A DNA stretch of 64,000 bases. It comes from Neorhizobium galegae (GTDB lineage Bacteria; Pseudomonadota; Alphaproteobacteria; Rhizobiales; Rhizobiaceae). Every line of letters begins with the position of its first letter. Position 1 is the first letter of the stretch. Location: NCBI RefSeq assembly GCF_017877135.1, contig NZ_JAGIPH010000004.1:62001-126000 (forward strand). Direction: 5' to 3'. The position numbers and the translations under genes were made by a program. Positions 24,813 to 45,127 of this stretch are shown piece by piece. The notes under the pieces were generated by a model. It was not told the origin of the DNA and did no database searches. It saw only the letters and a program-made list of their open reading frames with translations.

Positions 24813-25807
24813 TCAGGGGGCGGTGCGGATGCAGGCGCTGAAATGGCCGGGGGCAATCTCGTTGAGGGCGGGGATCACCTTGGCGCAATCGGCAATCGCC
24901 ATCGGGCAGCGGGTGCGGAAGACGCAGCCGCTCGGCGGGTTCAGCGGGCTCGGAATATCGCCCTTCAGGATGATGCGGTTCTTCGGCGCATCCGGATCCG
25001 GCTTCGGAACGGCCGACAGCAGCGCCTGGGTATAGGGATTGTTCGGACGGCTGTAGAGCGCCCTGGTGGGCGCTACCTCCATGATCCGCCCGAGATACAT
25101 CACGATCACCCGGTCGCAGATGTGCTCCACGACCGCCAGATCATGCGCGATGAACAGCATGGTCAGGTTGAACTGTTCCTTGAGGTCATCGAGAAGGTTG
25201 ATCACCTGGGCCTGGATCGAAACGTCGAGCGCCGAAACCGGCTCGTCCGCGACGATGAAATCGGGCTCGACGGCAAGCGCGCGCGCAATGCCGATGCGCT
25301 GCCTCTGGCCGCCCGAGAATTCGTGCGGGAAACGGTCCTGATAGTCCGCCGAGAGGCCCACCTGTTCGAGAAGCGCCACGACGCGGTCCTGCCGCTCGCT
25401 GGGGGCGCCGATCCCGTGCACCGAAAGGGCATGCGACAGGATGGTGCGGACCTTCTCGCGCGGATTGAGGCTGGCATAAGGGTCCTGGAAGACGATCTGC
25501 ATCCTCTTCCGAAAGCGTCGCATCTCCGGGCGCGACAGGAGGTTGAGATTGGTGCCGTCGAAGTCCACCGTCCCGGAGGTCGGTTCGAGAAGCCGAAGGA
25601 TGGTGCGGCCGACCGTGCTCTTGCCGGAGCCGGATTCCCCGACCAGCCCGACGACCTCGCCACGGTCCACACGAAAGCTGACATCATTGACGGCGTGCAC
25701 CGAACGGACGACGCGGTTGAGGATGCCGCCCCGCAGAGGGAAGACCTTTCTCAGGTTTTGGACGATCAACAGGGCTTCGGATCGATCCGGCACGTTTGCA
25801 GCCTGCA

Positions 25808-25808
<1 letters not shown>
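24813..25808 (-). CDS. peptide ABC transporter ATP-binding protein (OppF/DppF type)
   Basis: A 331-residue ATPase: Walker [10 protein letters not shown], signature [14 protein letters not shown], Walker [13 protein letters not shown] and the C-terminal oligopeptide-transporter extension with Cys-rich [10 protein letters not shown]. Start ATG 25808 overlaps the OppD stop (TGATG). No permease or binding protein gene is in this arm; those are at 43563-48733 in the opposite arm, which in turn lacks ATPases. The two sets very likely form one importer. Confidence 0.92.
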
Positions 25809-26845
<1,037 letters not shown>

Positions 26846-26867: not shown

Positions 26868-28274
26868 TCATGCCACGGCCCTCGCCGCTATTGCGCCCGT
26901 CGGAACCGTGTAACGGCCCCAGCCGGGGTCTGTGCTGATCTTTCCGTCCTCGAACACGGTGCGTCCGCGCACCAGGGTGCGGCGGATGGCGCCTTCGAAT
27001 TCGGCGTTCTGGTAGAGGTGTGAAATGTCGCGTGCGTGGGTGAAGAGCGTCTGCGGGGTAATGCGCGTGCGGCCCTTCAGATCCACGAGCACCAGATCGG
27101 CATCGCCACCGACGCGGATTGCACCCTTGTCCGGCAGGTTGAAGCGGCGGGCGGCATTGCCGGACAGCAGTTCCACCATGCGCGGCAGATCCAACCTTTT
27201 CCTGCAGACCGCATCCAGCATGGCCGGCAGCATGGTTTCGAGCCCGGGCGAGCCGGGAGGCGCCTTCGGGAAATTGCCGAGATGGGCCTGCTTTTCCGCA
27301 AAGGCGAAGGCGGCATGGTCCGTCGTCACGTGATCGATGGTGCCATCGGCAAGCGCTTCCCACAGCGCATCCTGATCGACCTTGCTGCGCACCGGCGGAT
27401 TGATTTTTGCAAACACGCCCGCCGCCTGCACATCTTCCACGGTTCGCACGAGATAATGCGGGCAGGTCTCCGCCGAAAAGTCGGAGGTTCCCTTGAAGCG
27501 GCGCAGCACGTCGACGGTGAGTGCGCTGGTGACGTGCGCGATATGCAGGCGGGCCCCGGCCTGCATGTTCATCAAAAGCAGCTTGGCAACGGCGACGGCC
27601 TCACAGATCTCGGGCCGAAGCGCACAATGGGTTGTGGCAAGCGAGGGGTCGAGACCGGCCGCCTCCGCGGCATAATGGGCCAGCAATTGTTCGCTTTCGG
27701 CATGCACCACCACCGGCAGGCCGGTGCGTGCCAGCGCCTCAAGCGTTGCAAGCTGGCTTCCCTCGTCTGGAAAGGACAGGCCGGCGAACTCGTCATCGCG
27801 TCCGGGCGGGGCGGCGGTCGTGAAGATCTTGAAGGCGATGGCGCCGGCGCTCGCGCTTGCCTCCAGCGCCTTCGCCGAGAGATCTCCCGGCGCGGCATAG
27901 AGCGCAAAATCCACCAGCGCCCGGTCTGCGAAATGATCGCGCCGGATCATCACGCGCTCGGCGCTGTTGCAGCAGGGTTTCGAGATCGGCATCTCGAACA
28001 GCGTGGTGATGCCACCGGCTGCTGCTGCCCGGGTTTCGCTTTCCACGCTGCCGCGCTCGGGAAAGGCCGGCGCCCGCACATGGCAGTGAATGTCGATCAC
28101 ACCCGGCAGGAGATGCAGTCCGGTGGCATCGATCACGTGGTCTGCTGCAACGGGGGTGCCGGGTGCCACCATGGCTGCGATCTTGCCATGCGCGAGCGCG
28201 ACGTCGGCGGCTGCGATGCCATCGGAAGACACGATTTGGGCATTGCGGATCAGGGTCTCGTATGCAGCCGTCAT
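26868..28274 (-). CDS. hydantoinase / dihydropyrimidinase / dihydroorotase-type amidohydrolase
   Basis: A 468-residue cyclic-amide hydrolase. Metal ligands appear as DIHCHVR (about residue 61), a lysine likely carbamylated in FKIFTT (about 148), HAES, HIAHVTS and the late Asp in TTDHAAF. This is the binuclear amidohydrolase site that opens hydantoins, dihydropyrimidines, allantoin or dihydroorotate. Which ring it opens cannot be decided; NCNSAE-type substrate-loop residues were not diagnostic. Overlaps the upstream gene by 4 bp. The PuuE- and AllA-like genes in the other arm suggest that ureido chemistry is a theme here. Confidence 0.85.
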
Positions 28275-29698
28275 TTCAGACCCAGTTCCGTCAATGCCTT
28301 GGCCACGCCATCCAGGTTGGTCAGCTTCATGCTGGCATAATTGGGAGCAAGAACGATGCCATCTCCGCCGGCCCGGTAGGTCGCCATCACGCTGCGATAG
28401 GCGATGTCGGGCGTGCATTGTGCCTGATCGGCGCGGGTGCGGGGGGCATCCACGCCGATCCCCATGAACACCTTCGCCTTGCCGTTCACCCCGCGCACCG
28501 CATCGGCGCACTGGCCCTCCACATAGGTATCGGGATCCATGCCCGTCTGGATGACGCTCGCATAGGGCGCCTCCTTGAGGCCGAGCAGCCGGTAGAGCAC
28601 GGCGGTTGCCTCGTCTGGCGAGAAATCGCGCAGGATGGTCTTCTGGAAGAAGCCGAGTTCCTTGGCGAACACCTCGCCGGCCTGATGCTGGTAGGTGATG
28701 GGTTTCACCCAGTCCGCATAGAGCGTCTGCTCTTCCCAGGGCCACTGCGCCTTGCGGAAGATGTTGAAATGGTTGCGGTTCCAGACATTGAGCCCGAAGG
28801 GCAGCGATGGCTTGCACCATTTGACGAGGCCATAAAGCTCGCGATCCAGATCCTTGTTGCGCTCCAGCCAGAAGCGCTCCCAGATCAGCGCCTCGGGATT
28901 GGCAAGTAGGGTGCGCAGGAAGGTGATGAAGGCGCCGTCCGCAAAACTCTTGCCGGCCTTCGCCTCCTGCATGAAGTCATAGAGGTTGAGGAGGGCCTTG
29001 CGGCAGGCCTCCACGTCGATGCCGCGTTCCATCGCCTCGCGTCGGGCATGGCTGGAAAAATCGCCGGGTGCACCGCCCTGGATCAGCGTGTCGAGCGGCG
29101 AGTTGCGCTCGTTGCACCACATCACGCCGTCGATCGGATGGTTTCGCACCTGATCCTCGATCATCGAGAGAATCCAGTTGCGATAGCCGGGATGGCTGGT
29201 CGAGGGATCGGAGCCGATGCGACCGAAGATGTCGATTTCCATCGCCTGGGCGAGGTTGGGAATATCGACGGTGTTAACGGAGCCGTGGCCGGTATATTTG
29301 AAGAAGGGCTCCATCAGTTCGATATAGACCTTCATGCCGCGTGCATGGGCCGCCGGCAGGACCATCTTCAGGATGTCCTTGCCGTCGAATTGCGGGTCGC
29401 GGGTGCGATAATCCTTCATGAAGGTGCCGCCATAATAGGCAGGGTCGGGGTCGAAATAGGCGCCGCCCGTCATCGCGAAGGGCTCCGGCACGCCATGGTC
29501 CGGCCAGCCGTCGAGCTGCCAGGAAATCGAGCGACCGGTCTTCAGACCGAGCCACGAGACGGTGCCGAGCATCAGCACGTTGACGCCCACCCGGTTCTGC
29601 AGCGTATCGAGAACGGCCTCGACGCCCTCGTCGAGAAAGCTGATCGGGCTGATCTGGATGCCGACGAATTTTTGGCTCGGATCGGGTTTTCCGGTCAT
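28271..29698 (-). CDS. uncharacterised TIM-barrel, glycoside-hydrolase-like protein
   Basis: A 475-residue protein without signal peptide. Alternating strands and helices with GVNVLMLGTVSW, ARGMKVYIELMEPF, DGVMWCNERNSPLD and PITYQHQAGE look like a (beta/alpha)8 barrel of the hypothetical glycoside-hydrolase kind, with Glu/Asp residues at strand ends. I do not recognise a characterised family. It starts in the stop codon of the aminotransferase gene and ends in the start of the hydantoinase-like gene, so translation is tightly linked. It may cleave a sugar-containing part of the imported compound, or it may be a barrel with another chemistry. Confidence 0.55.
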   Translation of the reverse strand: MTGKPDPSQKFVGIQISPISFLDEGVEAVLDTLQNRVGVNVLMLGTVSWLGLKTGRSISWQLDGWPDHGVPEPFAMTGGAYFDPDPAYYGGTFMKDYRTRDPQFDGKDILKMVLPAAHARGMKVYIELMEPFFKYTGHGSVNTVDIPNLAQAMEIDIFGRIGSDPSTSHPGYRNWILSMIEDQVRNHPIDGVMWCNERNSPLDTLIQGGAPGDFSSHARREAMERGIDVEACRKALLNLYDFMQEAKAGKSFADGAFITFLRTLLANPEALIWERFWLERNKDLDRELYGLVKWCKPSLPFGLNVWNRNHFNIFRKAQWPWEEQTLYADWVKPITYQHQAGEVFAKELGFFQKTILRDFSPDEATAVLYRLLGLKEAPYASVIQTGMDPDTYVEGQCADAVRGVNGKAKVFMGIGVDAPRTRADQAQCTPDIAYRSVMATYRAGGDGIVLAPNYASMKLTNLDGVAKALTELGLK

Positions 29699-30876
29699 GC
29701 CGCGGCCTTTCCATGGCTGGCGATGAAGGTTTTCATGCGGGAGACGGCTTCCTTGATGCGCGGCAGCGGCTGGAGGAAGGAGATGCGGATGTAATCCGGG
29801 TTCGCATCGCCGAACATGGTGCCGGGAAAGAGCATCACGCCCGTTTCGCGCAGCAGCTTCTCGCAGAATTCCGGCGTCGGCATGCCGGTGGAGGAAACGT
29901 TGGTATAGACGTAGAAGGCGCCGCCCGGATCTCCGTAGGTCAAACCCATCTCGTCGAGCGCCGGCAGAAGATAGGCGCGTCGCGCGGCATATTCGGCAAT
30001 CATCGCCTCGATCGGCTCCTGCGGACCGGTCAACGCGGCAAGGGCCGCATGCTGCGAGATGGTGCAGGTATTGATCGAGAGCGTGTGGCGCACTTCCACG
30101 ATCCTTGCAACATAATCGGAGGGGGCCGCCAGATAGCCGACTCGCCAGCCGGTCATCGCATAGGTCTTGGAGAAGCCGTTGAGGGTGATCGTCCGGTCCT
30201 TCATGCCGGGCAGGCTTGCGATCGCCAGATGCGCGTGGCCCTCGTAGATGATGCGGGCATAGATCTCGTCGGAAACGATGAGGAGATTGTGCCTGACAGC
30301 GAGATCGGCGATCTCCCGGATCACGGCGGGCGGCGTCACCGCCCCTGTCGGGTTGTTGGGGGAGACCAGCACGAACATTTTCGTGCGCGGCGTGATGCGC
30401 TTTTCGATCTCGGCAACGTCGAGCGCGAAATCGTTTTTCTCGTAGGTCGGAACCGGAACCGGCACGCCCCCCGCCAGCCGCACGGCCGTGTCATAGGTGG
30501 TGAAGCGCGGCGAGGTGATCAGAACCTCGTCGCCCGCGCCGATCAGCGTCAGCATGATCAGCGTGATCGATTCCTGCACGCCGGCGGTGACGACGATGTC
30601 GTCGGCGCCGTAGGCAAGCCCGTATTGCCGGTTGAGATCGGCAGCGATTGCCTCGCGCAGCGCCGGAATGCCGGTCGGGCCGGTGTAATGGTGCTGGTTG
30701 TCGTGGATTGCGCGGATCGCGGCCTCGGCAATATGGGCGGGGGTGTGAAAATCCGGGTCGCCGCGACCCATGGCAATCACATCCGGCAGGCCGGCGGCGA
30801 TGGCGAGCATCTTGCTGCGAAAGGCACCATCTTCCTCGGTGATGCGGTCGGTGAGGCAGTCTGTGACGAAACTCAT
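29695..30876 (-). CDS. PLP-dependent aminotransferase, class I/II (AspC-like fold)
   Basis: A 393-residue fold-type I aminotransferase. SPNNPTGAVTPP and SDEIYARIIYEG carry the PLP-contacting Asn and Asp/Tyr; the PLP lysine is in LNGFSKTYAMTGWRVGY. Start ATG 30876 lies just after the upstream stop; a TTG at 30903 is in frame but less likely. A paralogue with the same opening (GRGDPD) is at 36781 in the other arm. Probably transfers the amino group of an amino acid released from the substrate. Confidence 0.88.
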   Translation of the reverse strand: MSFVTDCLTDRITEEDGAFRSKMLAIAAGLPDVIAMGRGDPDFHTPAHIAEAAIRAIHDNQHHYTGPTGIPALREAIAADLNRQYGLAYGADDIVVTAGVQESITLIMLTLIGAGDEVLITSPRFTTYDTAVRLAGGVPVPVPTYEKNDFALDVAEIEKRITPRTKMFVLVSPNNPTGAVTPPAVIREIADLAVRHNLLIVSDEIYARIIYEGHAHLAIASLPGMKDRTITLNGFSKTYAMTGWRVGYLAAPSDYVARIVEVRHTLSINTCTISQHAALAALTGPQEPIEAMIAEYAARRAYLLPALDEMGLTYGDPGGAFYVYTNVSSTGMPTPEFCEKLLRETGVMLFPGTMFGDANPDYIRISFLQPLPRIKEAVSRMKTFIASHGKAAA

Positions 30877-30880
30877 GGGA

Positions 30881-32116
30881 TCAATGCATCCGTTTTCCGG
30901 CAATGAAGGTCATGGCGATCTTTTCCAGCGCAAACAGGTCCTCGTCCGGCTTGCCGTCAACGACGATCAGGTCCGCGTCCTTGCCCGTCTCCACGGTGCC
31001 GATCAGGTGGTCCATCTTCGACAGTTTTGCGCCGCGGATGGTGATGGCCCTCAGGGCATCCAGACGGTCGGGGCAGACGCCGACCTCGACCATGAAATCA
31101 AGTTCCGGCGCAATCGAGCTGTGTTCCACGGCGGGGCTTCCGGCATCGGTGCCGAAGACGATCGGAACGCCGGCCTTTGCCGCGCGCACCAGCCCGCCGA
31201 AGCGCGACTTGTCGGCCACCGCCTTCTGCCGCTCGAGGATCTTCCATTCCGGGATGCCGAATTTTCGGGCGATCTCCGGCTTCGACTGCATGACCAGCGC
31301 CGAAAAGGTGGTGACGATGGGTATCTTCTTGTCGAGGAGGATCTGGATCGTCTCGTCGCTCATCGAGCCGCCATGCTCGACGCAGTCCACGCCGAATTCT
31401 GCAACGCGGCGGATGCAGGCGTCATAGGTCGCGTGCGCCGTGACCGGCAGGCGGTGCCGGTGCGCTTCGTCGATCAGCGCCTCCAGCTCGGCATCGGTGA
31501 ATTCCAGCGTGTCGTGGCAGGCCATGATCTTGATGAGATCGGCGCCGCCCTTCAGCTGGTCGCGCACGGCGCGGCGCATCTCGTCGGCACCGCTCGCCTC
31601 CCGGCAGACCCAGTAGGTGTGGCCGCCGGTCTGGATGATGGCCTCACCGCTCACCTTGAGGCGCGGGCCGGGAAAGATGCCCTGTGCGACCGCCTGCTTG
31701 GTGAAGAGATTGGCGTTGTGGACGCCGAGATCGCGCACCAGCGTGATGCCCGATTGCAGGCTGCGCAGCATGTTGCCGGCCGCCTTGTAGGCGCGGATTT
31801 CCGGGCTGTCATACATGGACTGGAAGGAGAGTTCGTGGATGCCGTCCCAGGAGAGATGCGCATGGGAATTGATCATGCCGGGCATGATTGTCTTGCCCCC
31901 GGTGTCGATCACCTCGGCACCCTCCGGCATTGCGGTGAGATCCGCGCGCTGCCCGACCGCCGTGATGCGGCCGCCCTGCACCTCGACGAAACCGTCCTCG
32001 ATGATCTCGTCATCGACGGCGGTGATGATGCGCCCCAGAAGCACCCGGTGCGGGGCAGGGATGTCGAACATCGGCTTGATGATCTTGGTATAGTGCCAGG
32101 CTGCGGGTTCGGGCAT
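30881..32116 (-). CDS. metal-dependent amidohydrolase (imidazolonepropionase/prolidase-like)
   Basis: A 411-residue amidohydrolase-superfamily enzyme. First metal motif NSHAHLSWDG near residue 84, a Lys in the middle (the QLKGGADLIKIMACHD segment), ACEHGG-like CVEHGGSMS, and the final Asp in FGTDAGSP. The group hydrolyses imidazolones, Xaa-Pro and other amide bonds. I chose ATG 32116 because GGAGG stands before it; the open frame upstream overlaps the preceding gene. Gap of 85 bp to the Ldh2-type gene. Confidence 0.87.
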   Translation of the reverse strand: MPEPAAWHYTKIIKPMFDIPAPHRVLLGRIITAVDDEIIEDGFVEVQGGRITAVGQRADLTAMPEGAEVIDTGGKTIMPGMINSHAHLSWDGIHELSFQSMYDSPEIRAYKAAGNMLRSLQSGITLVRDLGVHNANLFTKQAVAQGIFPGPRLKVSGEAIIQTGGHTYWVCREASGADEMRRAVRDQLKGGADLIKIMACHDTLEFTDAELEALIDEAHRHRLPVTAHATYDACIRRVAEFGVDCVEHGGSMSDETIQILLDKKIPIVTTFSALVMQSKPEIARKFGIPEWKILERQKAVADKSRFGGLVRAAKAGVPIVFGTDAGSPAVEHSSIAPELDFMVEVGVCPDRLDALRAITIRGAKLSKMDHLIGTVETGKDADLIVVDGKPDEDLFALEKIAMTFIAGKRMH

Positions 32117-32201
32117 GGTCAAAACCTCCGGAAGGGTGGGAATGCGCGATTGCGCGCGTTGTGTTGGGGCGCCTTGGCGGGCGCGGCCTGTGCGGGCGCG
32201 C

Positions 32202-33284
32202 TCACAGCACGTGCTCGTGGTAGGGGCCGATGACGTCGATGCGGGAAGAGACGCCGAGTTCGCGGCCGAGCGCCAGAAGGTCGGCCAGCACCTCGTCATC
32301 CAGCGGCACGCCGTCCGCGGATTTGCGAGCGACGCGGCGCGCCTCCTGTTCGCCGGGCAGCAGGATTTCGGAAAAGCCCGGCCGTGTCTTGCGGCTCTTC
32401 ACCATGCCGGCGAACTCGTCCATGCGCGCCCGAAAAGTGTCGAGCGGCATGAACCATTCGATGTCGATGGCGGTCAGCGCATGGGAGACGTCAAGGCGTG
32501 CCGGATCGGCATAGGGAGTGAGCCCGAAGCCGCCGCCACCGATCACGCCGGTCAAAACGTCGGTCATGAAGGCAAGGCCGTAGCCCTTGTATTCGCCGAT
32601 GGCGAGCAGCGCGCCCTTCATGGCGGCATCGGGATCGTCGGTCACCTCGCCGTCCGGGGTCAGTGCCCAGTCGAGCGGCATTTTCCGGCCCTCGCGTGAG
32701 CGCCACAGCATCATGCCCTTGCCGGCGGTCGTCAGGGCAAAGTCCATCACGACAGGAAAGCCGAGGCCGGTCGGCGCGGCAATCCCCCAGGGATTGGTGC
32801 CGACGGCGCCCTCGCGGGCACCCCAGGGGGCCATTTCTGGTCCCGCGTTCGTATAGGCGATGCCGATGCAGCCGGCTTCTTCTGCCTGACAGGCATGCAC
32901 GGCGGACGAACCGTAATGCGTGGAATTGCGCACGATCACCTGGCCGATGCCGCAGGTCTTCGATTTCTCGATGGCAAGTTTCATGGCGCGCGCCGCCGCC
33001 ACGGTGCCGATGCCGTTATGCGCATCCACCAAAGCAAGCGCCGGACTTTCCTTGACGACTTCGAAGAGCGCACGCGGATCGACCAGCTTCTGGCTGATGC
33101 GTTCCTGATAGCGGCGCAGGCGCCGCACGCCCTGTCCGTGGCCCGGATGGAAGCGCAGTTCGGAAAAGATCAGCGCATCGGCAAAGATCCGGGCATCCTC
33201 AGCGCTGAGCCCCAGAACCTCGAAACCCTCGGTCATGAAGCCGGACAGGCTTTGTCTGTCGACGCTGGTCATGGAAATCGGCAT
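32202..33284 (-). CDS. Ldh2-family NAD(P)-dependent dehydrogenase (malate/ureidoglycolate dehydrogenase type)
   Basis: A 360-residue member of the malate/L-lactate dehydrogenase (Ldh_2) family, whose members include ureidoglycolate dehydrogenase AllD, malate and sulfolactate dehydrogenases. Typical pieces: SELRFHPGHGQGVRRL, NSTHYGSSAVHACQAEEAG, GTNPWGIAAP and VMDFALTTAGKG. It oxidises a 2-hydroxy acid. It begins right after the DUF4438 gene. With an AllA-like and a PuuE-like protein in the right arm, a 2-hydroxy-ureido or similar acid is an attractive but unproven substrate. Confidence 0.87.
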   Translation of the reverse strand: MPISMTSVDRQSLSGFMTEGFEVLGLSAEDARIFADALIFSELRFHPGHGQGVRRLRRYQERISQKLVDPRALFEVVKESPALALVDAHNGIGTVAAARAMKLAIEKSKTCGIGQVIVRNSTHYGSSAVHACQAEEAGCIGIAYTNAGPEMAPWGAREGAVGTNPWGIAAPTGLGFPVVMDFALTTAGKGMMLWRSREGRKMPLDWALTPDGEVTDDPDAAMKGALLAIGEYKGYGLAFMTDVLTGVIGGGGFGLTPYADPARLDVSHALTAIDIEWFMPLDTFRARMDEFAGMVKSRKTRPGFSEILLPGEQEARRVARKSADGVPLDDEVLADLLALGRELGVSSRIDVIGPYHEHVL

Positions 33285-33286
33285 CG

Positions 33287-34165
33287 TCAGGGCTCCAGCG
33301 CAAGAAGGGTTGCAATATTGGTGCCGGGCGCTGCAAACGACCCGAGTTCGCCCTTCGGCGCCGTCATGATGACGGTGAGCCCCGGGCCGTAGCCGGCGCG
33401 CGGACCGTCGGTCTGGCCAACGACGCCGATGCCGAGTGCGCCGCGCAGATAGCCGTGATTGTAGCGGCTGTCGGTGTTCTCGATCGCCACCACGTCGCCG
33501 AGCCGCAGCGAAGAAAGCCCGGCCTTTTCCACCTCGGCGCGATCCGTCGTCTGGATGTGCAGGCTGCCGCCTTCACTGGTGAGACCGGCGCCAGCACCAA
33601 CGAGATGGGCCGGAACGGTCGCGACGACGCCGATCTTCAACACGCCGTCTTCCACCGTCTTCGGCAGCGCCTTCAAAAGCGCCGGAGAGAGGCCCTTGCA
33701 GGCAACCGCCGCATGACCACGGATCTCCATGCCGGTGCCGAGCGCGCGCACCACGATCTGGTCACCGACCGCCATCTTGCGGCGAACCTCGACCGGGAAA
33801 TGCACGATCACCTGTTCGGAGAAGCGCCCGGACTTGCCGGTGACCACACCCTTGGCGCCCTGCGCCTGCCCGGTCATCACCATGGCGGTGTTGCCGAGGC
33901 AGGCAAACACGTTCAGCCCGCGGTTCTTGAGGTCATCCGTGCCCTTGATCGAAATACCGGGATGGATGCAGTCGGCCGCCCAGCCGAAGGCGCGATCCCC
34001 GACGGAGACGTTGTAGACGATGCCGCCGAAGGTCGGTAGCAGGAAGGGCGTGCCGTCGGCTGCAAGCCTATAAGGTTCGGCCGGAAGCCCGGGAAAGCCC
34101 GGATGCGCGATGGCGCCGCCAACCGAGACGGAAACCAGATCGGCCTCGTTCAACTCAATGCTCAT
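33287..34165 (-). CDS. DUF4438 family protein (second of a tandem pair)
   Basis: A 292-residue protein of a family with no known function, recognised by VGDRAFGWAADC, NVFACLGNTAMV, KGVVTGKSG and the closing GPGLTVIMT. Glycine-rich, with alternating short strands and no signal peptide or membrane segment, so cytoplasmic. It overlaps its paralogue by 4 bp and shares the VGDRAFGWA core and overall order of motifs. Pairing suggests a hetero-oligomer. I assign no reaction. Confidence 0.75.
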   Translation of the reverse strand: MSIELNEADLVSVSVGGAIAHPGFPGLPAEPYRLAADGTPFLLPTFGGIVYNVSVGDRAFGWAADCIHPGISIKGTDDLKNRGLNVFACLGNTAMVMTGQAQGAKGVVTGKSGRFSEQVIVHFPVEVRRKMAVGDQIVVRALGTGMEIRGHAAVACKGLSPALLKALPKTVEDGVLKIGVVATVPAHLVGAGAGLTSEGGSLHIQTTDRAEVEKAGLSSLRLGDVVAIENTDSRYNHGYLRGALGIGVVGQTDGPRAGYGPGLTVIMTAPKGELGSFAAPGTNIATLLALEP

Positions 34166-35031
34166 GCGCGGGCTCCGATCGAGAAATAGTCGGCAATGTT
34201 GGCGGTGGGATCGATGTGGAAGGTGATGCCGCCGATGGCTGCGGTCATCAGGGTCAGAATGCCGGGACCGTGGCCGGTCATGACGGAATCGCCGTGGATG
34301 CAGAGCGCGATCGACACCGCGCCTTCGCGGTAGGATCGGCCGAAATGGTGATCGGCATGGTGGATGGCGATGAGATCGCCGAGCCGCATCCGGTCGATGC
34401 CGAGATCGGCCATCAGCTGGCGGTCGCCGCTCATCAGGTCCTGGTCGACATATTCGGAATTCAGTTCGGCGCCCGATCCCATGATGTCGATCGGCAGTTC
34501 CATGGCAACCGGCACATGCAGGGTGCCGTCCTTGCCGCGCGTCAGGCGCAGCGCCTGCAGCAGGCGCGGACTGGTCTTCTTGAATTCGACATAGGGAAAA
34601 TCGGCAAGCGCAATGCCACGCCCCTTGGCCATGATCTGGATCTGGTCGCCGATGTTGAGCTTCTCGTTCACCTCGTCCGGGAAATCGACCAGCAGCCGCG
34701 CATGTTCGCCGGTCACCACGCCGCGTGCCCCCTTGGCAAGGCCCGAGGTCACCATGGCTTCGTTGCCGATGCAGGTGAGATAGTGCAGGGCGAAATCGGA
34801 TTTCTCGTCTGGGTGGGCAATGGAGACGCCGGGCTCGACATGGTCGCCCGCCCAGCCGAAGGCACGGTCGCCGACGCGGGCATTGTAGGTCACCCCGTAC
34901 ATGCCGGGCAGCATGACGCCGCGGCCGTCGGGATGGTGGAGATAGCCTCCGGGCCGCAGCGCCGGCTGGCTGACATAGCCGCACACGGCCATCTCCACGA
35001 GGCTGTCCTCGTTGCTCTTCAGGTCACTCAA
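34162..35031 (-). CDS. DUF4438 family protein (first of a tandem pair)
   Basis: A 289-residue paralogue of the downstream protein: VGDRAFGWAGDH, YLTCIGNEAMVT, RGVVTGEHA, IHHADHHFG and GPGILTLMT. Begins with TTG 35031, supported by AAGGGGAA at proper spacing. The His-rich IHHADHHFG segment (about residues 225-233) could bind a metal. It is the first gene of the 12-kb left arm, so it is probably important to the pathway. Function unknown; the link to transporter and amidohydrolases is the main clue. Confidence 0.75.
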   Translation of the reverse strand: MSDLKSNEDSLVEMAVCGYVSQPALRPGGYLHHPDGRGVMLPGMYGVTYNARVGDRAFGWAGDHVEPGVSIAHPDEKSDFALHYLTCIGNEAMVTSGLAKGARGVVTGEHARLLVDFPDEVNEKLNIGDQIQIMAKGRGIALADFPYVEFKKTSPRLLQALRLTRGKDGTLHVPVAMELPIDIMGSGAELNSEYVDQDLMSGDRQLMADLGIDRMRLGDLIAIHHADHHFGRSYREGAVSIALCIHGDSVMTGHGPGILTLMTAAIGGITFHIDPTANIADYFSIGARA

Positions 35032-35116: not shown

Positions 35117-35138
35117 CTGCGCATCGATTGTCGACTGT

Positions 35139-35156: not shown

Positions 35157-35247
35157 CATATTGAAATTTAGACGTCAAGCGTCCAGTTGGCCACGATAAA
35201 GAAATGCAAATAACAGAGGGGTGCGAGGCGATCGTCTCGTAGAAACA

Positions 35248-36768
35248 ATGAGTTATGCGGATTTTATGGACGCGATGGGCCAGGTCAACGACCTGCTGAA
35301 CGCGGAATCGATCCTGAAGTGGGACGCCCGGACCATGATGCCGCCCGGCGGCGCCGTGACACGCGGCAAGCAGGTCTCGACGCTCGCGGTCCTCGCCCGC
35401 GACCTGCTGGTGTCAGACGATACCCGACGCAAACTCGACGCGGCCGCACGGGAGATGGCGGCCAAGCCGGAGGATGCCGTCGAGCAGGTGATGATCGCCC
35501 AGGCCCGCGCGGCGATCGACTACCATCTCGCCATTCCCGCAAGCCTTCTGCAGCGGCGCACCGAACTCGGCTCCATCGGCCAGGTTGTCTGGGCGAAGGC
35601 GCGGGCGGAGAACGATTTTGCCTCCTTCGCGCCGATCCTCGAGCAGACGGTGGCGCTGAACCGCGAGATGGCCGAGGTGATCGGCTATTCGGAGCATCCC
35701 TATGATGCACTGATGTTTCGCTTTGAGCCGGGCGAGACGGTGGCGACGCTGAAGACGCTGTTTGGCCGCCTGCGCGAGGCGCTTCTGCCGCTGGTCCGCG
35801 CCATCGGCGAGAAGCCGGAGCCGCGCTTCGATTTCCTGAGGCGCCACTACCCCATCGACCGGCAGCACCAGTTTGCCCTGAAGATGGCGGAGACGGTGGG
35901 CTATGATCTGAACCGTGGTCGCCTCGACACCACTGTCCACCCGTTCGAGGTGTCCTTCACCCGCAACGACGTGCGCATCACCACGCGATTCAATCCGACC
36001 TACATGCCGGCAAGCCTGTTCGGCGCGCTGCATGAGGCAGGCCACGGGCTTTACGAGCAGGGCGTCGACGAGGCCTATACGCGCACTCCGTTCGCCACGG
36101 ATCTCGTGGGCCTCTATGCGGTGGGCGGCGTCTCCTTCGGCGCGCATGAAAGCCAGTCGCGCCTCTGGGAGAACCATGTCGGCCGCGCCCGCGCTTTCTG
36201 GAACATCCATTTTGCAACAGCGCAGGAATTCTATCCCGAGCAGCTTGGCGATGTCACGGCCGAGGAATTCTACCGGGCCATCAACCGCTGCAAGCCGGGC
36301 TTTATCCGGGTCGAGGCGGATGAACTGACCTATGATTTCCACGTGATGCTGCGCACCGACATCGAGGCGGCGCTGATCGACGGTTCGCTGAAGGTAAAGG
36401 ACCTGCCGGAGGCCTGGAACGCCAAGATCAAGGAGTACCTGGGTCTTGATGTGCCCAATGATACGCTGGGCGTGCTGCAGGACGTGCACTGGTCGTCCGG
36501 GCAGATCGGCACCTTCTGCAACTATACGATCGGCAATGTGATGGCCGGCCAGCTGTTCGAGACGGCAAGCCGCGATCCCGTCATCGCCGAAGGGCTCTCC
36601 AGCGGCAATTACGATCCGCTGCGCGCCTTCATGGTGGAGCATGTGCACCAGCACGGCCGCCGCTATTCGCGCGACACGCTGCTCGTCAAGGCAACCGGCC
36701 GGCCGCTCGATCCGGAACCCTACATCGCCCACCTCACGCGCAAATATTCCGAGCTTTACGAACTGTAA
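35248..36768 (+). CDS. M32-family metallocarboxypeptidase (Taq type)
   Basis: A 506-residue cytoplasmic carboxypeptidase. HEAGH at about residue 262 is the zinc-binding HExxH, followed by the third ligand Glu in [13 protein letters not shown]. The opening [15 protein letters not shown] and [15 protein letters not shown] are typical. Full length for the family. ATG 35248 fits the family N-terminus although no strong ribosome site precedes it; a GTG at 35221 is the alternative but has AGAGGG too close. First gene of the right arm; trims C-terminal residues from imported peptides. Confidence 0.9.
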
Positions 36769-36780: not shown

Positions 36781-37983
36781 ATGTCCGAGAACCAGCCACT
36801 GTCCGGACGCCTTGCCGACCGCGTGAAGCTTCGGGAAGAGCATGTCATTACCCGCATGGCCGATATTGCGGAAAAGCTGACGGATGTGATCCGCCTTGGC
36901 CGAGGCGATCCCGATCTCGACACACCCGCCCATATCGTCAAGGCGGGGCAGGATGCGCTCGGGCGGGGCGAGACCCATTACGGCCATCCACTCGGCTTGC
37001 CGGCGCTGCGCCAGGCGATTGCCGAAAACATCAGGGCGCATGGCGGCGCCGATTACGCGCCGGACGAGATCGTCGTCACCCCCGGTGGTCAGCACGCGAT
37101 GTTCGTCATCGCGCTTGCCCTTTTGAACCCCGGCGACGAGATCATCGTGCCGTGCCCGGGCTACAATCCCTATAGCCAGGCCGCCGAACTCTCTTCGGCG
37201 GAGGTGGTGCCGGTGCGCATGAGCATGGACACCAATTTCACACTGACGGCGGCGATGATCGAGGCGCATATCACGCCGCGCAGCAAGGTTCTGGTGCTGA
37301 TCAATCCGAACAACCCGACCGGCACGGTGACGCCGCCGGACGAGGTGGAACGGATCGCCAAACTCGCCATCAAGCATGACCTGATCGTCATTTCCGACGA
37401 AATCTATGCCCGCCTCGTCTATGGCAACCAGCGCATCCAGCCGGTGGCGGCGCTACCGGGCATGCGCGAGCGGACAATTACGCTCTCGGGCTTTTCCAAG
37501 GCCTATGCCATGACCGGCTGGCGCGTCGGCTATTTCGCCGGGCCGAAGGCGCTGATCACGGCGATGGCCGAGATCAACCATGCCTTTGCCATTTCGACGG
37601 CATCCGTCAGCCAGCACGCGGCACTCGCAGCCCTCACTGGCCCGCAGGACTGCGTCGAGGAGATGCGCCTGATCTATGACGAGCGCCGCAAGGCGCTCTG
37701 CGAGGGCCTTGATCGCATCGGCATTCCCTATGCCGAGCCGCAGGGTGCCTTCTATGTCTATGCCAATGTCTCGGTGGTGGGCATCCCGGCCAGTCTCTTC
37801 TGCGAGCGCCTGCTCGCCGAAGGCCGGGTAATGATCTATCCCGGCCGCATTTACGGCGACTACACGGATGATTTCGTCCGCATGTCGCTGACCCAGCCCG
37901 TGGAACGCATCCGCGAGGCAATGACCCGCATCCAGACCGTCGTCCATGCCATCCGGTCCGAGCGCTCCGCGCCAGCCGCCTGA
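36781..37983 (+). CDS. PLP-dependent aminotransferase, class I/II
   Basis: A 400-residue fold-type I aminotransferase: NPNNPTGTVTPPDE, SDEIYARLVYGN, and the PLP lysine in SGFSKAYAMTGWRVGY. Clearly paralogous to the enzyme at 29695-30876 (shared GRGDPD-TPAHI opening, AALAALTGPQ and the C-terminal YPGRIYGD region). The two arms thus each carry one copy, which may act on two different amino donors or on successive intermediates. It lies 12 bp after the peptidase gene. Confidence 0.88.
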   Translation: MSENQPLSGRLADRVKLREEHVITRMADIAEKLTDVIRLGRGDPDLDTPAHIVKAGQDALGRGETHYGHPLGLPALRQAIAENIRAHGGADYAPDEIVVTPGGQHAMFVIALALLNPGDEIIVPCPGYNPYSQAAELSSAEVVPVRMSMDTNFTLTAAMIEAHITPRSKVLVLINPNNPTGTVTPPDEVERIAKLAIKHDLIVISDEIYARLVYGNQRIQPVAALPGMRERTITLSGFSKAYAMTGWRVGYFAGPKALITAMAEINHAFAISTASVSQHAALAALTGPQDCVEEMRLIYDERRKALCEGLDRIGIPYAEPQGAFYVYANVSVVGIPASLFCERLLAEGRVMIYPGRIYGDYTDDFVRMSLTQPVERIREAMTRIQTVVHAIRSERSAPAA

Positions 37984-37995
37984 AGAGAGGTTCTC

Positions 37996-38481
37996 ATGTC
38001 CGTCAAGTCAGACAATCCCAACGTCAAGTCCATCAAGCACATGGCCTTTGCCGTGCGTGACGCCAAGGCCGCGCTGGAAAACTATGCCAAGTTCCTCGAC
38101 GTGCCCGCCGAGACGGCGCTGATCGACTACCCGAAGTCGAAGAACCGCGTCGCGCTCTTCAATCTCGGCGGAATCGAATACCAGCTCTGCCAGTCGCTGG
38201 AGGAGGGCGGTCGCTTCGATGCGTGGATCAAGGAGCGCGGCGCCGAGGGCCTGCATCACATCTGCTACGAGGTGGAGAACATCGACCAGGCGCTCGACCA
38301 CGCCAAGGAACAGGGCGCGGAACTGCGCATCTGCAAGGCCTGCGGCGTCTATGGCTCGCACCCGCACCCGGAAGGCTATGTCGCCTTCCTCGACAATGAT
38401 GCCGGCGGCATCGAGATCGAGTTCATGCAGGTCTACACGCCCGAAGAGCTTGAAAAGTATAATCAGTACAAGGGTATCTGA
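37996..38481 (+). CDS. VOC-family (glyoxalase/epimerase-type) metalloprotein
   Basis: A 161-residue vicinal-oxygen-chelate protein made of two beta-alpha-beta-beta-beta units. Likely metal ligands: His in IKHMAFAV, His in GLHHICYEV, and Glu in GIEIEFMQV, the pattern of methylmalonyl-CoA epimerase and related isomerases. It could epimerise or isomerise a 2-carbon centre next to a carbonyl. In the same transcript as the aminotransferase and the deacylase. Substrate unknown. Confidence 0.82.
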   Translation: MSVKSDNPNVKSIKHMAFAVRDAKAALENYAKFLDVPAETALIDYPKSKNRVALFNLGGIEYQLCQSLEEGGRFDAWIKERGAEGLHHICYEVENIDQALDHAKEQGAELRICKACGVYGSHPHPEGYVAFLDNDAGGIEIEFMQVYTPEELEKYNQYKGI

Positions 38482-38483
38482 GC

Positions 38484-39485
38484 ATGTCGGAAGCCAAGAC
38501 CGTTACCGTTGGTACTGCAACCGCAAGGCCCGGCGAAGTGGTGCGCGGGTTCATTCCCGTCACCGAGCTTGCCGGCGGCTCGAAGGTTGAAATCCCGCTG
38601 GTCATCGTCAACGGCGTCAAGCCCGGCCCGGTATTCTGGGTGGATGGCGCGATCCATGGCGACGAGCCGGAAGGACCGCTTGCCTGCGCCATTGCGCTGA
38701 AGGAAGTCGATCCGCAGCAACTGTCCGGCACGCTCGTGATGGTGCCGGTCATGAACGTGATGGCGTTCGAGAACGCCAATCGCGGCAATCCGCTCGACAC
38801 CTTCTCCTTCGACATGAACCGTATCTATCCCGGTCGTGCCAACGGTTATCTCTCCGAACGGGTGGCCTGGGCGCATTCGCAATGGATGAGCAAGGTCGCC
38901 GATTTCGAGATCTCCATCCATTCCGGCGGCGCGCATTCCTTCCTCGCCAAGGCGATCTTCGTGGACGAAAGCCCGGCCTCGGTCGAACTGGCCATGGCCA
39001 TGGGCGAGGGCTGGGGCTGCATCATGTCCAACTTCCTGCCCAAGGGCTCGCCCATGGCGCAGATGAAGGAGATCGGCAAGACGGGCATCACCGTCGAGCT
39101 TGGCGGACGCTCCGCCACCTCGCCGGAACGCTTTGCCCATGTCGCCCGCGAACTGGCGAACTCGATCCTCAACATCCTCAGGCACTACAAGATGTATCCG
39201 GGGACCGCGACCTATCCGACGGATGCGACGAAGGGCCAGCAGGAGGCGCTGCTGGCGCCTGCCTCCGGCATCTTCATTCCGACGCCCGGCGTGGATTTCC
39301 TCAAGCCCATGACCAAGGGGCAGTCGATTGCCCGGATCGTCAACATCTTCGGGGATGAACTTGCCGAACTCGTGGCGCCTGCCGATGGCATGATCTTTGG
39401 TCTGAGAGCCCTGCCGAACGTCAACACCGGCGACTGGTGCTGCTTCTTCAACAAGGTCGAGGGAGCGCGCGTCTGGCCGGCGTGA
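38484..39485 (+). CDS. succinylglutamate desuccinylase / aspartoacylase family deacylase
   Basis: A 333-residue M14-like zinc deacylase. HGDE at about residue 58 (AIHGDEPEGPLA) is the zinc motif; DMNRIYPG and ISIHSGG add the usual Arg and third ligand; GITVELGG holds the catalytic Glu. The C-terminal part (LLAPASGIFIPTPGV onwards) is the beta-barrel domain of this family. It removes an acyl group from an N-acyl amino acid. It begins 2 bp after the VOC stop. Fits release of a free amino acid for the adjacent aminotransferases. Confidence 0.88.
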   Translation: MSEAKTVTVGTATARPGEVVRGFIPVTELAGGSKVEIPLVIVNGVKPGPVFWVDGAIHGDEPEGPLACAIALKEVDPQQLSGTLVMVPVMNVMAFENANRGNPLDTFSFDMNRIYPGRANGYLSERVAWAHSQWMSKVADFEISIHSGGAHSFLAKAIFVDESPASVELAMAMGEGWGCIMSNFLPKGSPMAQMKEIGKTGITVELGGRSATSPERFAHVARELANSILNILRHYKMYPGTATYPTDATKGQQEALLAPASGIFIPTPGVDFLKPMTKGQSIARIVNIFGDELAELVAPADGMIFGLRALPNVNTGDWCCFFNKVEGARVWPA

Positions 39486-39509
39486 GCCGGCAGGGCGTCA
39501 GGGGGCACC

Positions 39510-40427
39510 ATGCGAGATTTCATCGGATATGCCAATCGACCTCCTCAGTTCCGCTGGCCGGGTGACAGCGGCCTCGCGGTCAACATCGTCCTGAACTACG
39601 AGGAGGGATCGGAATATTCGGTCGCGGACGGTGATGGCCGTTCGGAAACCGCGCTGCTGGAGATCAACCAGCCGCGCGTGCCCCCCGGCGATCGCGATCT
39701 CGCATCCGAAAGCATGTATGAATATGGCAGCCGTGTCGGCTTCTGGCGTCTGCACCGGCTGTTTACCGAGCGCAATCTGCCGCTGACGGTGTTTGCCAGC
39801 GCCCAGGCGCTGGAGCGCAATGCAGAGGTGGCAGCGGCCATTGCCCGCACCGACTGGGACATTGCCTGCCACGGATGGCGGTGGGTGGAGCATTACCGGC
39901 TGGACGAGGCGACCGAGCGCGAGCATATCGCCCGCGCCTTCGACAGTATCGTTGCAACCGTGGGCCGTCCGCCCGCCGGCTGGTATTCCCGCTACAGCCG
40001 CAGTGCCGCGACCCGGCGGCTGGTGGTCGAGCATGGCGGCTATGACTATGACAGCGATGCCTATAATGACGAGGTGCCCTACTGGGTCCGCGTCGATGGA
40101 CGCCCGCATCTTGTCGTTCCCTATTCTCTCGTCACCAATGACGCCAAGTTCGTACAGGGCGGCTGGGTCACAGGCCGCAGCTATGCGGAATTCCTGATCG
40201 AAACCTTCGACATGCTGCTGAAGGAAAGCCGGTCGCAGCCGCGCATGATGTCGGTCGGCCTGCATCCGCGGGTGATCGGTCATCCCGGCCGCGCCTCCGG
40301 TCTCGAACGTTTTCTCGATCACGTGGCGGGCTGTGAGGGCGTCTGGATGGCGCGGCGGCAGGATATCGCCCGCCACTGCAAGGCCGAAATGCCCTTCGAC
40401 GCGCTGGCTGCAAAGGAGAGCACATGA
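39510..40427 (+). CDS. polysaccharide-deacetylase-fold hydrolase, allantoinase PuuE-like
   Basis: A 305-residue NodB/polysaccharide-deacetylase-fold protein of the PuuE branch: VNIVLNYEEGSE, YEYGSRVGFWRLHRLF, TVFASAQALERN, DIACHGWRW and the C-terminal SVGLHPRVIGHPGR. PuuE enzymes are metal-independent allantoinases, but the branch also contains other amidases. No urate oxidase, hydroxyisourate hydrolase or allantoicase gene is in the window, so allantoin itself is not assured as substrate. Overlaps the AllA-like gene by 4 bp. Confidence 0.75.
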   Translation: MRDFIGYANRPPQFRWPGDSGLAVNIVLNYEEGSEYSVADGDGRSETALLEINQPRVPPGDRDLASESMYEYGSRVGFWRLHRLFTERNLPLTVFASAQALERNAEVAAAIARTDWDIACHGWRWVEHYRLDEATEREHIARAFDSIVATVGRPPAGWYSRYSRSAATRRLVVEHGGYDYDSDAYNDEVPYWVRVDGRPHLVVPYSLVTNDAKFVQGGWVTGRSYAEFLIETFDMLLKESRSQPRMMSVGLHPRVIGHPGRASGLERFLDHVAGCEGVWMARRQDIARHCKAEMPFDALAAKEST

Positions 40428-40933
40428 ATTTCGTGCCTCTGGAGCAGGGACTATCCGCGCAGGATTTTGCGCCGTTCGGCGGCTTCATAGACAGGCCGGG
40501 CGTGATCGGCGATCGGCGGTTCTATTCGGACTGGCTGGGTGCGGCCCGCCCGGACTGCGCACCGGTGCTGCACACCAACCGCATTGCTCCCAGCGAATGC
40601 CCGGTCGCGCTCGACAGCCTGGAACATCACCCGCACGCGGCCCAGGTTTTTCTGCCTCTCGATGTATCGCGCTATCTGGTGATGGTGGCGCCCTCCGATG
40701 CGGACGGTCGGCCCCTGATCAGCGCGCTCAGGGCCTTCGTGATGCCGGGCTCCCTCGGCGTCGTCTACCGGCCCGGCATCTGGCATGCGGGCGCCCGTGT
40801 TCTGGATCGCGAGGGCAGTTTTGCCGTGCTGATGTGGCGCGGTTCGCAAAACGACGACGTGCATCTGCCGATCGCGCGGCTTCTCGTCGGCCCGGACCCG
40901 GAGAAGGCGATGGTAGGAGGCGCGCATGGTTGA
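40424..40933 (+). CDS. ureidoglycolate lyase (AllA)-like protein
   Basis: A 169-residue cupin-fold enzyme of the AllA family: EHHPHAAQVFLPL, YLVMVAPSDADGRP, GVVYRPGIWHAGARV and SFAVLMW. AllA splits ureidoglycolate into glyoxylate and urea. The translational coupling with a PuuE-like gene echoes the purine-ureide pathway, but the other steps are missing, so a related carbamoyl substrate is possible. Its end overlaps the next gene by 8 bp. Confidence 0.78.
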   Translation: MNFVPLEQGLSAQDFAPFGGFIDRPGVIGDRRFYSDWLGAARPDCAPVLHTNRIAPSECPVALDSLEHHPHAAQVFLPLDVSRYLVMVAPSDADGRPLISALRAFVMPGSLGVVYRPGIWHAGARVLDREGSFAVLMWRGSQNDDVHLPIARLLVGPDPEKAMVGGAHG

Positions 40934-41597
40934 GCCACAGGCCGATATCGCCCGTATCGAAAGCCTGCCGCTGAGGCTGGTGGTGGCCGACATGCTGCGC
41001 ACCGGCATCGTGGAGGGCCGGTTGCGGCCCGGCACGCCGATCGTCGAGGCGGCGCTAGCGGAGCAGCTGAACGTGTCGCGCGCGCCGGTGCGCGAAGCGA
41101 TCCAGATCCTCGAAGCCGACGGGCTGATCGACAACCTTCCCTACAAGGGCAAGCGGGTAAAGCCGCTGACGGCCAAATCCGTCGAGGAAATCTACAGCAT
41201 CCGCGAGCAGTTCGAGGCCTTCGCCGTCCGGCGTATCATCGAGAGCGGCGCGGATGTTAGCCCGCTGAGCGAGCATGTGTCGGCGATGTTTGCCGCAGCC
41301 GATGCGGCCGATCTCGTGGCCCTGATTGCCGCCGATGCCGCCTTTCATCGCACCCTCATCCGGCTTGCCGATCACGGCCTGCTGCTGACGCTCTGGGATC
41401 ATCTGGCGCTGCGCATCCGGCAGATCATGGCTCTGCGCAATCGCGCCAATGCGGACCTGCGCCAGGTTGCGGCCAATCATCCGCCGATCGTGGAGGCACT
41501 TACCGCCCGCGACCTGGACCGTGTGCTCTCTCTTGTGTCGCAGCACAGCCGATCCGCCTCGGAAATCGACCTGAAATGGCTGGAGGTCGCGCCATGA
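40926..41597 (+). CDS. GntR-family regulator, FCD type (second)
   Basis: A 223-residue regulator with an N-terminal winged helix (GIVEGRLRPGTPIVEAALAEQL, then SRAPVREAIQILEADGLI) and a C-terminal FCD ligand domain (DAAFHRTLIRLADHGLL). It is embedded in the right arm, overlapping its neighbours at both ends, so it is made together with the pathway enzymes. It may sense an intermediate and control this arm or an internal promoter. The relation to the GntR at 20262, only distantly similar, is not resolved. Confidence 0.9.
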   Translation: MVEPQADIARIESLPLRLVVADMLRTGIVEGRLRPGTPIVEAALAEQLNVSRAPVREAIQILEADGLIDNLPYKGKRVKPLTAKSVEEIYSIREQFEAFAVRRIIESGADVSPLSEHVSAMFAAADAADLVALIAADAAFHRTLIRLADHGLLLTLWDHLALRIRQIMALRNRANADLRQVAANHPPIVEALTARDLDRVLSLVSQHSRSASEIDLKWLEVAP

Positions 41598-42487
41598 CCC
41601 GGCCCGGTATTCTCATCACCGGTGGCGGCGGTTTCGTCGGCTCGCATCTGGCCGAGGGGTTTTGGGCGCTGGGCTATCCGGTCACGGCGCTCGATCGCGC
41701 CTTCGATGCCGCGACGCGAAGCCGGCTTGCCGGCATCCGGTTGATCGAGGCGGAGTTGACCGCTGAGACACTGCGGGCCGCGATGGACGAGACCATCGGC
41801 ATCGTCATCCATGGTGCGGCGCTGACAACGCCGCCGGAATGCCTCGGGATCTCCGAGATTGCCCATGTGCGGGACAACGTCACCCTGCTGATCGATTGCC
41901 TCGATCAGGCCGTGGCGCGGGGGATCGGCTGCTTCATCTTTCTGTCCTCGTCCGGTGTCTTCGCCTTTGATGAGGCCGAACTGCTGGATGAGGCCGTCGC
42001 GCCGCAGGGCACGTCCGCCTATGCGCTGGCAAAGCGTGCCGGCGAAGTGATCGCCCTGGCGCGGCCGGAAACGCTCGTGCTGCGGCTTGGGCCGCTCTAC
42101 GGACCGCACGAGGAAAGCCGCCCGACACGTCGCTTCGTCTCGCCGGTCCGCCAATGGCTCGACGCTGCGCAGAAGGGAATGCCGCTTGACGTCGCTAGTC
42201 CGCAATCGCGGCGCGACTGGACCTTCCTGCCGGATCTTTCCGCAGCGATCGACCGCCTGATCCGCGCAGAGGCGCGCGGCCTCATGCATCTGACATCCGG
42301 GGAGATCATCTCCGATCTCGCACTTGCCGAAACGATTGCCGCGCGCACGCCCGGCCTAGTCGCGGAGCGTGCAGACGAAACCGGGCCAAGGCGGGTGCCG
42401 ATGGTCTCGCGCCGCCCGGATCTTAAGGGCTTTGCCTGGACGCCGCTGGAGCGCGGCCTGCACCTGATGTCGGAGGTTCGCTCATGA
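41594..42487 (+). CDS. NAD-dependent epimerase/dehydratase (extended SDR)
   Basis: A 297-residue extended short-chain dehydrogenase: ITGGGGFVGSHLAEGF cofactor site, SSSGVF active-site strand and YALAKRAGE with the Tyr/Lys pair. These enzymes usually epimerise or dehydrogenate sugars or sugar acids. ATG 41594 overlaps the GntR stop; the open frame slightly upstream is not used. The following Gfo/Idh gene overlaps it, and together they suggest that a sugar or polyol part is processed. Confidence 0.85.
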   Translation: MTRPGILITGGGGFVGSHLAEGFWALGYPVTALDRAFDAATRSRLAGIRLIEAELTAETLRAAMDETIGIVIHGAALTTPPECLGISEIAHVRDNVTLLIDCLDQAVARGIGCFIFLSSSGVFAFDEAELLDEAVAPQGTSAYALAKRAGEVIALARPETLVLRLGPLYGPHEESRPTRRFVSPVRQWLDAAQKGMPLDVASPQSRRDWTFLPDLSAAIDRLIRAEARGLMHLTSGEIISDLALAETIAARTPGLVAERADETGPRRVPMVSRRPDLKGFAWTPLERGLHLMSEVRS

Positions 42488-43497: not shown

Positions 43498-43562
43498 CGG
43501 GGCGATCGATCGGCCAAAGCAGACAAGCCAAGAATAACCACAGAGGGCAAGGAACTTCAGAA

Positions 43563-45116: not shown

Positions 45117-45127
45117 TCGGATGACAG

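Follow-up and report, generated by a model that had tools for sequence, protein, structure and literature searches.

Introduction

The closest described relative of the proteins considered here is TM1086 of Thermotoga maritima, a member of the DUF4438 family whose structure has been solved since 2008 (PDB 3dcl and 3n99) and for which, as for DUF4438 itself, no function was found in the open-access literature searched. In the accessible portion of PMC2661377, TM1086 appears as a structural-genomics target whose crystals contain more than 1 MDa per asymmetric unit. As for regulators of the GntR/FCD type, the accessible text of PMC9765439 describes PrpR (PA0797), a repressor of Pseudomonas aeruginosa with ATTGTCGACAAT as its predicted operator, and reports EMSA in which PrpR binds the prpR upstream region. 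Here we describe a locus of Neorhizobium galegae in which two diverged DUF4438 genes stand side by side in a cluster of catabolic genes.

Two overlapping DUF4438 genes lead the leftward arm

In the window, by which we mean the whole stretch of 64,000 nucleotides that was analysed, two intact reading frames on the minus strand encode DUF4438 proteins, designated A (nt 34162–35031, 289 aa, canonical residues) and B (nt 33287–34165, 292 aa, remodelled residues) according to their Pfam domains, residues and AlphaFold models. A starts with TTG and B with ATG, the two genes overlap by the 4 bp ATGA (nt 34162–34165), and the proteins are 38% identical. Both Pfam domains of DUF4438 cover most of the length of each protein with values above gathering score, namely 163.1 bits in A and 162.4 bits in B for PF14505 (cut-off 24.9), and 147.1 and 132.5 bits, respectively, for PF20999 (cut-off 27). 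The initial annotation had placed two overlapping proteins of this family at the head of a catabolic operon, and this description holds, as the frames are intact, the Pfam matches are full-length, and the leftward arm opens with A and B, which are transcribed divergently from the M32 carboxypeptidase gene at nt 35221. The motifs VGDRAFGWA, C-I/L-GN and GVVTG were found in A and B alike, as it had stated; GPGxTxxMT, also assigned to both, is present in B (GPGLTVIMT) and not in A (GPGILTLMT).

Distribution and pairing of the two copies

PF14505 was detected in 1/247 genomes drawn from the taxonomic family of the window and in 1/385 drawn from its class, in both cases the window's own genome, and in 4/297 drawn from its order, namely the window's genome, G424, which holds a pair, and two genomes with one copy each, G469 (of the same taxonomic family as the window) and G468. 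Among 14 control genomes, only Thermotoga maritima was positive. No match was retrieved by tblastn of A against PLSDB, searched for a plasmid origin.

Related loci were collected with an alignment of six proteins as query against genome contigs, and the best 80 of 398 relatives, 63–98% identical to A, were retained, so that the sample leans to close relatives. Judging from their titles, these 80 loci span Alphaproteobacteria, Gemmatimonadetes, Acidobacteria, Chloroflexi and relatives of Truepera. In 79/80 of them, A is followed on its own strand by a match to B; in the lone exception (L066) the sequence ends 104 bp past A, and in two others B is incomplete, owing to a contig end inside B (L070) or to a run of N after its beginning (L089). 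The gap between A and B, measured from the start codon nearest to the stop of A, a choice that favours short gaps, is at most 30 bp in 76 of the 77 loci judged (loci without enough B were left out of the 80), with overlaps in 48. Median identity to the window proteins is comparable, 69% for A and 70% for B. Whole-genome search of 11 genomes with pair loci retrieved exactly two copies in 10 and one in G916, the genome of L089.

Draws around other centres each included the centre genome and were named after the title of its locus. Positives were 2/150 around the Gemmatimonadota centre, with two copies each; 8/101 around the Deinococcota centre, with two copies in 6, the others being G916 and G1617 (match near a contig end); 3/149 around the Acidobacteriota centre, corresponding to one pair, one fusion and one single; and 11/251 around the Chloroflexota centre, with two copies in 5 and one in 6 (that of G987 near a contig end). 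Around G919 about every fourth genome was positive (49/200), the positive genomes being small, a pattern from which Zetaproteobacteria may be guessed, with one match in 46 (a short fragment in G1484) and two in 3 (the second match of G1504 being a contig-edge fragment). Most DUF4438 copies in these wider draws are thus single.

Phylogenetic relationships were inferred with IQ-TREE from 54 proteins chosen among 227 aligned rows. First and second copies branch as mirror images, in both cases in the order G1068-type, G978-type and then A or B, with support of 100/100 for A, 100/98 for B and 96/95 for the wider B side; support is weaker where the G1068-type first copies join A (85/55). Midpoint rooting served the drawing alone and does not tell whether the duplication or the single copies came first. 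Such branching fits a single old A/B duplication that would have preceded all pairs and been inherited as a pair thereafter. The two halves of a natural fusion (see below) form a group of their own (support 95/96, flagged for long branches), a hint that the two-unit design originated a second time. The mirrored trees were also considered as a proof of a complex and discarded for this purpose, since the distance-matrix correlation over 47 loci is 0.920 for A–B against 0.905 for A–M32, hardly higher, and co-inheritance may therefore reflect the whole cluster.

Two different sets of fixed residues

The structure alignments comprised 53 and 48 selected sequences. Residues H64, E66, C87, N90, H110, D198, H246 and H254 (numbering of A) are kept in every tabulated single copy and canonical member, and D196 likewise, except for an N in G1068-type first copies. 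The A protein of the window carries H64, E66, H110, D198, H246 and H254, here defined as the canonical set. The 78 B proteins compared differ at these positions: H64 is replaced by C (74) or T (4), E66 by H, H110 by S and D198 by H (78/78 each), H246 mostly by Q (55) and H254 mostly by Y (72); in addition, D196 and R232 are S and H, respectively, in 78/78. In the B protein of the window C66, H68, S112, S201, H203 and H237 take the place of A's residues. Counterparts of D63, C87, N90, D129, D219 and D227 are retained in B. A and B share 41 columns at a threshold of 97%, and another 68 columns are fixed solely in A and 32 solely in B; the residue counts omit the A of L068, which has a stop in the stretch, and B stretches below 240 aa (L070 and L089). 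A and B are both conserved, with two fixed and different residue sets. The second copies of L117 (partial) and L119–L121 are remodelled differently from B, those of the L119 type retaining H110, H246 and H254, and the same applies to the first half of the fusion.

This natural fusion was found at L195:6838–8847 (and also at L182), where two DUF4438 units are joined in one chain of 669 aa with a hydrophobic, signal peptide-like N-terminus. Its first half is remodelled, with S in place of C87, and its second half is canonical, so that the fusion repeats the design of one canonical and one remodelled unit.

Our preferred reading, held with middling confidence, is that one cytoplasmic enzyme, a hetero-oligomer belonging to a GntR-controlled catabolic regulon, has A and B as its two subunits. 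A would carry the canonical active site and perform the catalysis, where by site we mean a set of conserved residues rather than a measured pocket, and B, as a remodelled partner, would complete or shape the site of A or the assembly. The pairing and the fusion suggest, indirectly, that A and B may associate physically. One enzyme with a canonical and a remodelled subunit would most simply explain the pairing, the mirrored branching, the equal conservation, the residue sets and the fusion; since some genomes hold a single copy with no partner, A may be sufficient by itself.

As a tentative possibility, A and B might instead be separate homo-oligomeric enzymes of the same pathway, B having been duplicated from A and re-specialised for another substrate or reaction, with the gene order serving equal expression. 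The changed positions of B are as fixed as those of A (78/78 at several), as would be expected if B had its own working site; six conserved A residues listed above have their counterparts in B, and both TM1086 entries contain one kind of chain. Separate enzymes are less easily reconciled with B following A in 79/80 loci, the 80th ending after A, and with a fusion that unites canonical and remodelled units in one chain.

Fold of A and B

AlphaFold models of A and B were obtained with pLDDT of 91.8 and 93.9, respectively. Superposition on TM1086 (3dcl) gave Z 40.3 and rmsd 1.6 over 278 residues with 41% identity for A, and Z 42.7 and rmsd 1.4 over 281 residues with 37% identity for B. The next structural matches were F1-ATPase-type chains, over about 68 residues, with Z of about 8–9 and rmsd of about 2; at such values the match may reflect a common arrangement of a small barrel in the models. 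No nucleotide-binding ATPase domain was found in A or B, for which the Pfam scan (E ≤ 0.001) lists DUF4438 domains only, and a BFVD search gave no match at E ≤ 0.001. Reading a function from the fold was attempted with Foldseek and VIA-align and abandoned, as TM1086 was the sole full-length match among those listed, followed by the F1-ATPase barrels.

These results bear on the unlikely case of a non-catalytic pair, which would bind or protect a metabolite of the cluster, or act as a sensor or scaffold for the neighbouring enzymes. In its favour, TM1086 matches over the full length, the other matches are mainly to the F1-ATPase-like barrel of about 68 residues, and no known enzyme covers the whole chain among the matches listed; against it, the conserved polar residues D63, H64, E66, C87, N90, H110, D198, H246 and H254 would resemble a site for chemistry.

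A conserved catabolic cluster

On the leftward arm (minus strand), B is followed by genes for an Ldh2-type dehydrogenase (nt 32202–33284; PF02615, 345 bits), an amidohydrolase related to Xaa-Pro dipeptidase and arginine carboxypeptidase (nt 30884–32116; PF01979, with PDB relatives including 3mtw and 3be7), the class I/II aminotransferase AT1 (nt 29695–30903; PF00155), the conserved protein P475 (nt 28271–29698), which shows weak GHL10 similarity below cut-off and no useful PDB relative, an AllB-like amidohydrolase (nt 26868–28274) and OppD- and OppF-like ATPases (nt 24813–26845, with frames at 25808–26845 and 24813–25931), recognised by the ABC ATPase motifs in their translations; an M14 protein is encoded beyond them. 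The rightward arm (plus strand) opens with the M32 carboxypeptidase (nt 35221–36768; PF02074, 561.7 bits) and continues with AT2, a paralogue of AT1, and VOC, AstE/DoeB-like, PuuE-like and AllA-like genes (nt 36781–40933, family scans), and, after the regulator described below, with an epimerase, a Gfo/Idh oxidoreductase, two solute-binding proteins and OppB- and OppC-like permeases (nt 41576–48733). The latter were named from scans and translations, the Pfam scan covering SBP2 of the solute-binding proteins and OppB and OppC being named from translations and homologues. Elsewhere in the window, nt 55015–60468 hold a repetitive ORF of 1817 aa, autotransporter-like by eye.

Neighbours were counted, as a query match anywhere in the locus, in the 55 loci whose flanks exceed 9.5 kb on each side. 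The most frequent were Ldh2 (53), AT1 and AT2 (51 each), P475 and Oxr1 (50 each), VOC (48), AllA (47), the amidohydrolase AmdH and M32 (46 each), PuuE and the epimerase (45 each), AllB (44) and AstE (41), followed by OppD and OppF (33 each), SBP (30), GntR2 (28), OppC and Oxr2 (20 each), OppB (19), M14 (5) and LLM (0); distal genes such as Opp are undercounted in these figures because flanks stop at 10 kb. The gene directly after B is Ldh2 in 59/74 loci, and VOC in 10 of the 15 exceptions. About 15 cluster genes thus recur around the pair in several phyla among the best 80 of 398 loci, and the context of aminotransferase, amidohydrolase and Opp-type importer proposed in the initial annotation is borne out for the A+B subfamily. 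In 45/80 loci an ORF cluster of the M24 metallopeptidase type (one member scanned) lies downstream of A on the same strand, from about 2.6 kb. In the window, no gene of this type occurs between Ldh2 and the amidohydrolase, where nt 32117–32201 leave no room for it.

From the peptidases, the deacylase-like and allantoinase-like proteins and the Opp importer, a peptide-like or ureido compound can be proposed as substrate, and the cluster looks built for uptake and breakdown of a peptide-like compound, which the Opp-type transporter would import. The A:B pair would then act on a 2-oxo-acid or 2-hydroxy-acid intermediate near the aminotransferases and the Ldh2-type dehydrogenase; this step is the weakest of our inferences, being based on neighbours only.

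A putative operator and its proposed regulator

The rightward arm includes a gene (nt 40926–41597, plus strand) whose product matches PF00392 and PF07729 at 56.7 bits (cut-off 27) and 72.8 bits (cut-off 24.3), respectively, and is thus a GntR winged-helix protein with an FCD domain. In the divergent intergenic region, nt 35127–35138 read ATTGTCGACTGT, with 2 mismatches to the palindrome ATTGTCGACAAT. With up to 2 mismatches, this palindrome occurs within 300 bp upstream of A in 65/78 loci, compared with a mean of 1.5 and a maximum of 3 per 80 control windows. Parts of ATTGTCGACAAT rank first in 8-mer enrichment over the 300 bp upstream of A, with GTCGACAA in 64/78 regions (2.2 expected). The best box has at most 3 mismatches in 71/80 loci, at a median position of -109, and 9/80 loci have no box upstream of A at this threshold. 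A different candidate operator, TGTATACA, was rejected, as it is found in 5/78 upstream regions and GTCGAC is preferred (68/78, shuffled mean 6.69).

Further copies were searched for in the window and in related genomes. The window holds 5 matches with 2 mismatches (1.71 expected), a number reached in 7/100 shuffles. In the differently built pair operons L132–L134, boxes with 2 mismatches precede the called start of the leading gene by about 55–65 bp. In G923 boxes precede Opp/SBP genes and, as in G915, GntR2-like genes. Other boxes outside the cluster lack a fitting neighbour or position: an exact one (G923:C16:32832) adjoins no window-like gene, and another exact one (G1164:C191:1460) falls within a called GntR-like frame. 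Around single-copy DUF4438 genes (29 loci, up to 3.4 kb), a box at 2 mismatches occurs in 2. Boxes with at most 1 mismatch number 26 in G000, 16 in G921, 9 in G915, 4 in G917, 10 in G923 and 3 in G1164, against 6 in G000, 5 in G923 and 0 in the other four genomes in the reversed control; many of these matches are therefore not operators.

A second exact box was observed in G915 (L218:6952–12781), where it precedes the called start of a GntR2 homologue by 45 bp. AT1-, SDR-, Ldh2- and AstE-like genes follow, and DUF4438 is absent from this paralogous operon.

By analogy with PrpR and from the positions of the boxes, we infer that the encoded GntR/FCD protein would control the cluster by acting on the ATTGTCGACAAT boxes.

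DUF4438 genes outside the main cluster

Two other settings of the pair were found. In L132–L134, mutually close relatives, a more distant pair lies with Gfo/Idh genes and a D-2-hydroxyacid dehydrogenase (L132 scanned), and in L135 a pair lies with Ldh2, two aminotransferase-like frames and a D-2-hydroxyacid dehydrogenase. Each of the three settings thus places a dehydrogenase for 2-oxo or 2-hydroxy acids next to the pair, namely Ldh2 in the main cluster and D-2-hydroxyacid dehydrogenase in L132 and L135.

Single copies have other neighbours, as in the six single-copy genomes of the Chloroflexota-centred draw. Those read adjoin xanthine dehydrogenase-type, HdrA-type or unrelated genes. In the loci read from the G919 draw, a nitrilase-superfamily gene cluster lies downstream in 10/10 (with another ORF between in L186), and two of its genes, when scanned, had deaminated glutathione amidase as best match at 216.5 and 199.4 bits (cut-off 500). 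In this arrangement (L184–L193), the single DUF4438 gene lies upstream of the nitrilase-superfamily gene, often with an aat-like gene nearby. In L007:7111–12026 and L008:7213–11872, a single DUF4438 is part of a similar small module with a trypsin-like protein, the remaining scanned proteins of which gave no Pfam match. Neither the singles of the Chloroflexota draw nor L007 and L008 have neighbours with a 2-oxo-acid theme.

It is very improbable that, as first proposed, A is a metal enzyme by virtue of its IHHADHHFG loop and DUF4438 a family that marks M14/aminotransferase/Opp loci: the motif is in A and absent from B, as claimed, and the surroundings of the pair often include aminotransferase and Opp genes, but the motif's His-rich character is not conserved among 80 A proteins (H224 in 1/80, the window protein itself, H225 in 47/80, H229 in 38/80, and only H228 in 80/80), M14 occurs in 5/55 loci, and single-copy DUF4438 genes lack such neighbours in the loci read, the outcome set beforehand as a refutation. 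Within positions 223–232 of A, only I223, D227, H228, G231 and R232 are invariant. The motif and M14 claims are thus largely refuted, A may bind a metal elsewhere, and the link to a catabolic setting is to be restated for the A+B subfamily rather than for DUF4438 as such.

Discussion

The computation shows that A and B occur in tandem, form separate clades that branch as mirror images, hold different fixed residues, adopt the same fold and share a box. The residues that separate canonical from remodelled DUF4438 copies are named here, and two DUF4438 copies are seen to accompany each other across several phyla. The cluster offers about 15 genes together with a DNA box and a regulator, so that its substrate can be sought by induction, which makes testable the question of DUF4438 function for a family whose solved structure dates to 2008.

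As regards known pathways, AllB-, PuuE-, AllA-, Ldh2- and DoeB/DoeA-like families also occur in clusters for allantoin/ureide and ectoine (doe) degradation. Identity with either pathway could not be established, as the genes remain below the curated NCBIfam equivalog cut-offs, both for allantoin (AllB 298.6/357.85, PuuE 361.7/424.6, best AllA-type 75.7/160, AllD 147.2/496.2) and for ectoine (DoeB 97.7/402.7 in the window, DoeA 42.9/613 for the M24 protein of L012). A literature search on the combined features of the pathway found no paper. The site predicted for PrpR is, in the accessible text of PMC9765439, the same 12-mer as the box found here, and PrpR has the 2-methylcitrate operon as its target, and not the DUF4438 cluster.

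At the level of the proteins, the fold of TM1086 is common to A and B over nearly the whole chain. The TM1086 entries, with 5 and 30 chains, each contain a single type of chain, in contrast to the pairing of two diverged copies, A and B. The N-terminal barrel of F1-ATPase alpha and beta superposes on about 68 residues of A and of B, without a full-length match to either. F1 pairs a catalytic subunit with a non-catalytic paralogue. A speculative and rather doubtful extension of our preferred reading would make A:B a hetero-oligomeric enzyme of a new class. Canonical subunits and their remodelled paralogues would take turns in the assembly, perhaps arranged as a ring via the F1-like barrels, and the enzyme would stand at the entry to a widespread route for an abundant compound, peptide-like or ureido, in Alphaproteobacteria, Gemmatimonadota, Acidobacteriota, Chloroflexota and Deinococcota; the design of one active and one remodelled unit would then have arisen at least 2 times, the second time as a fused chain.
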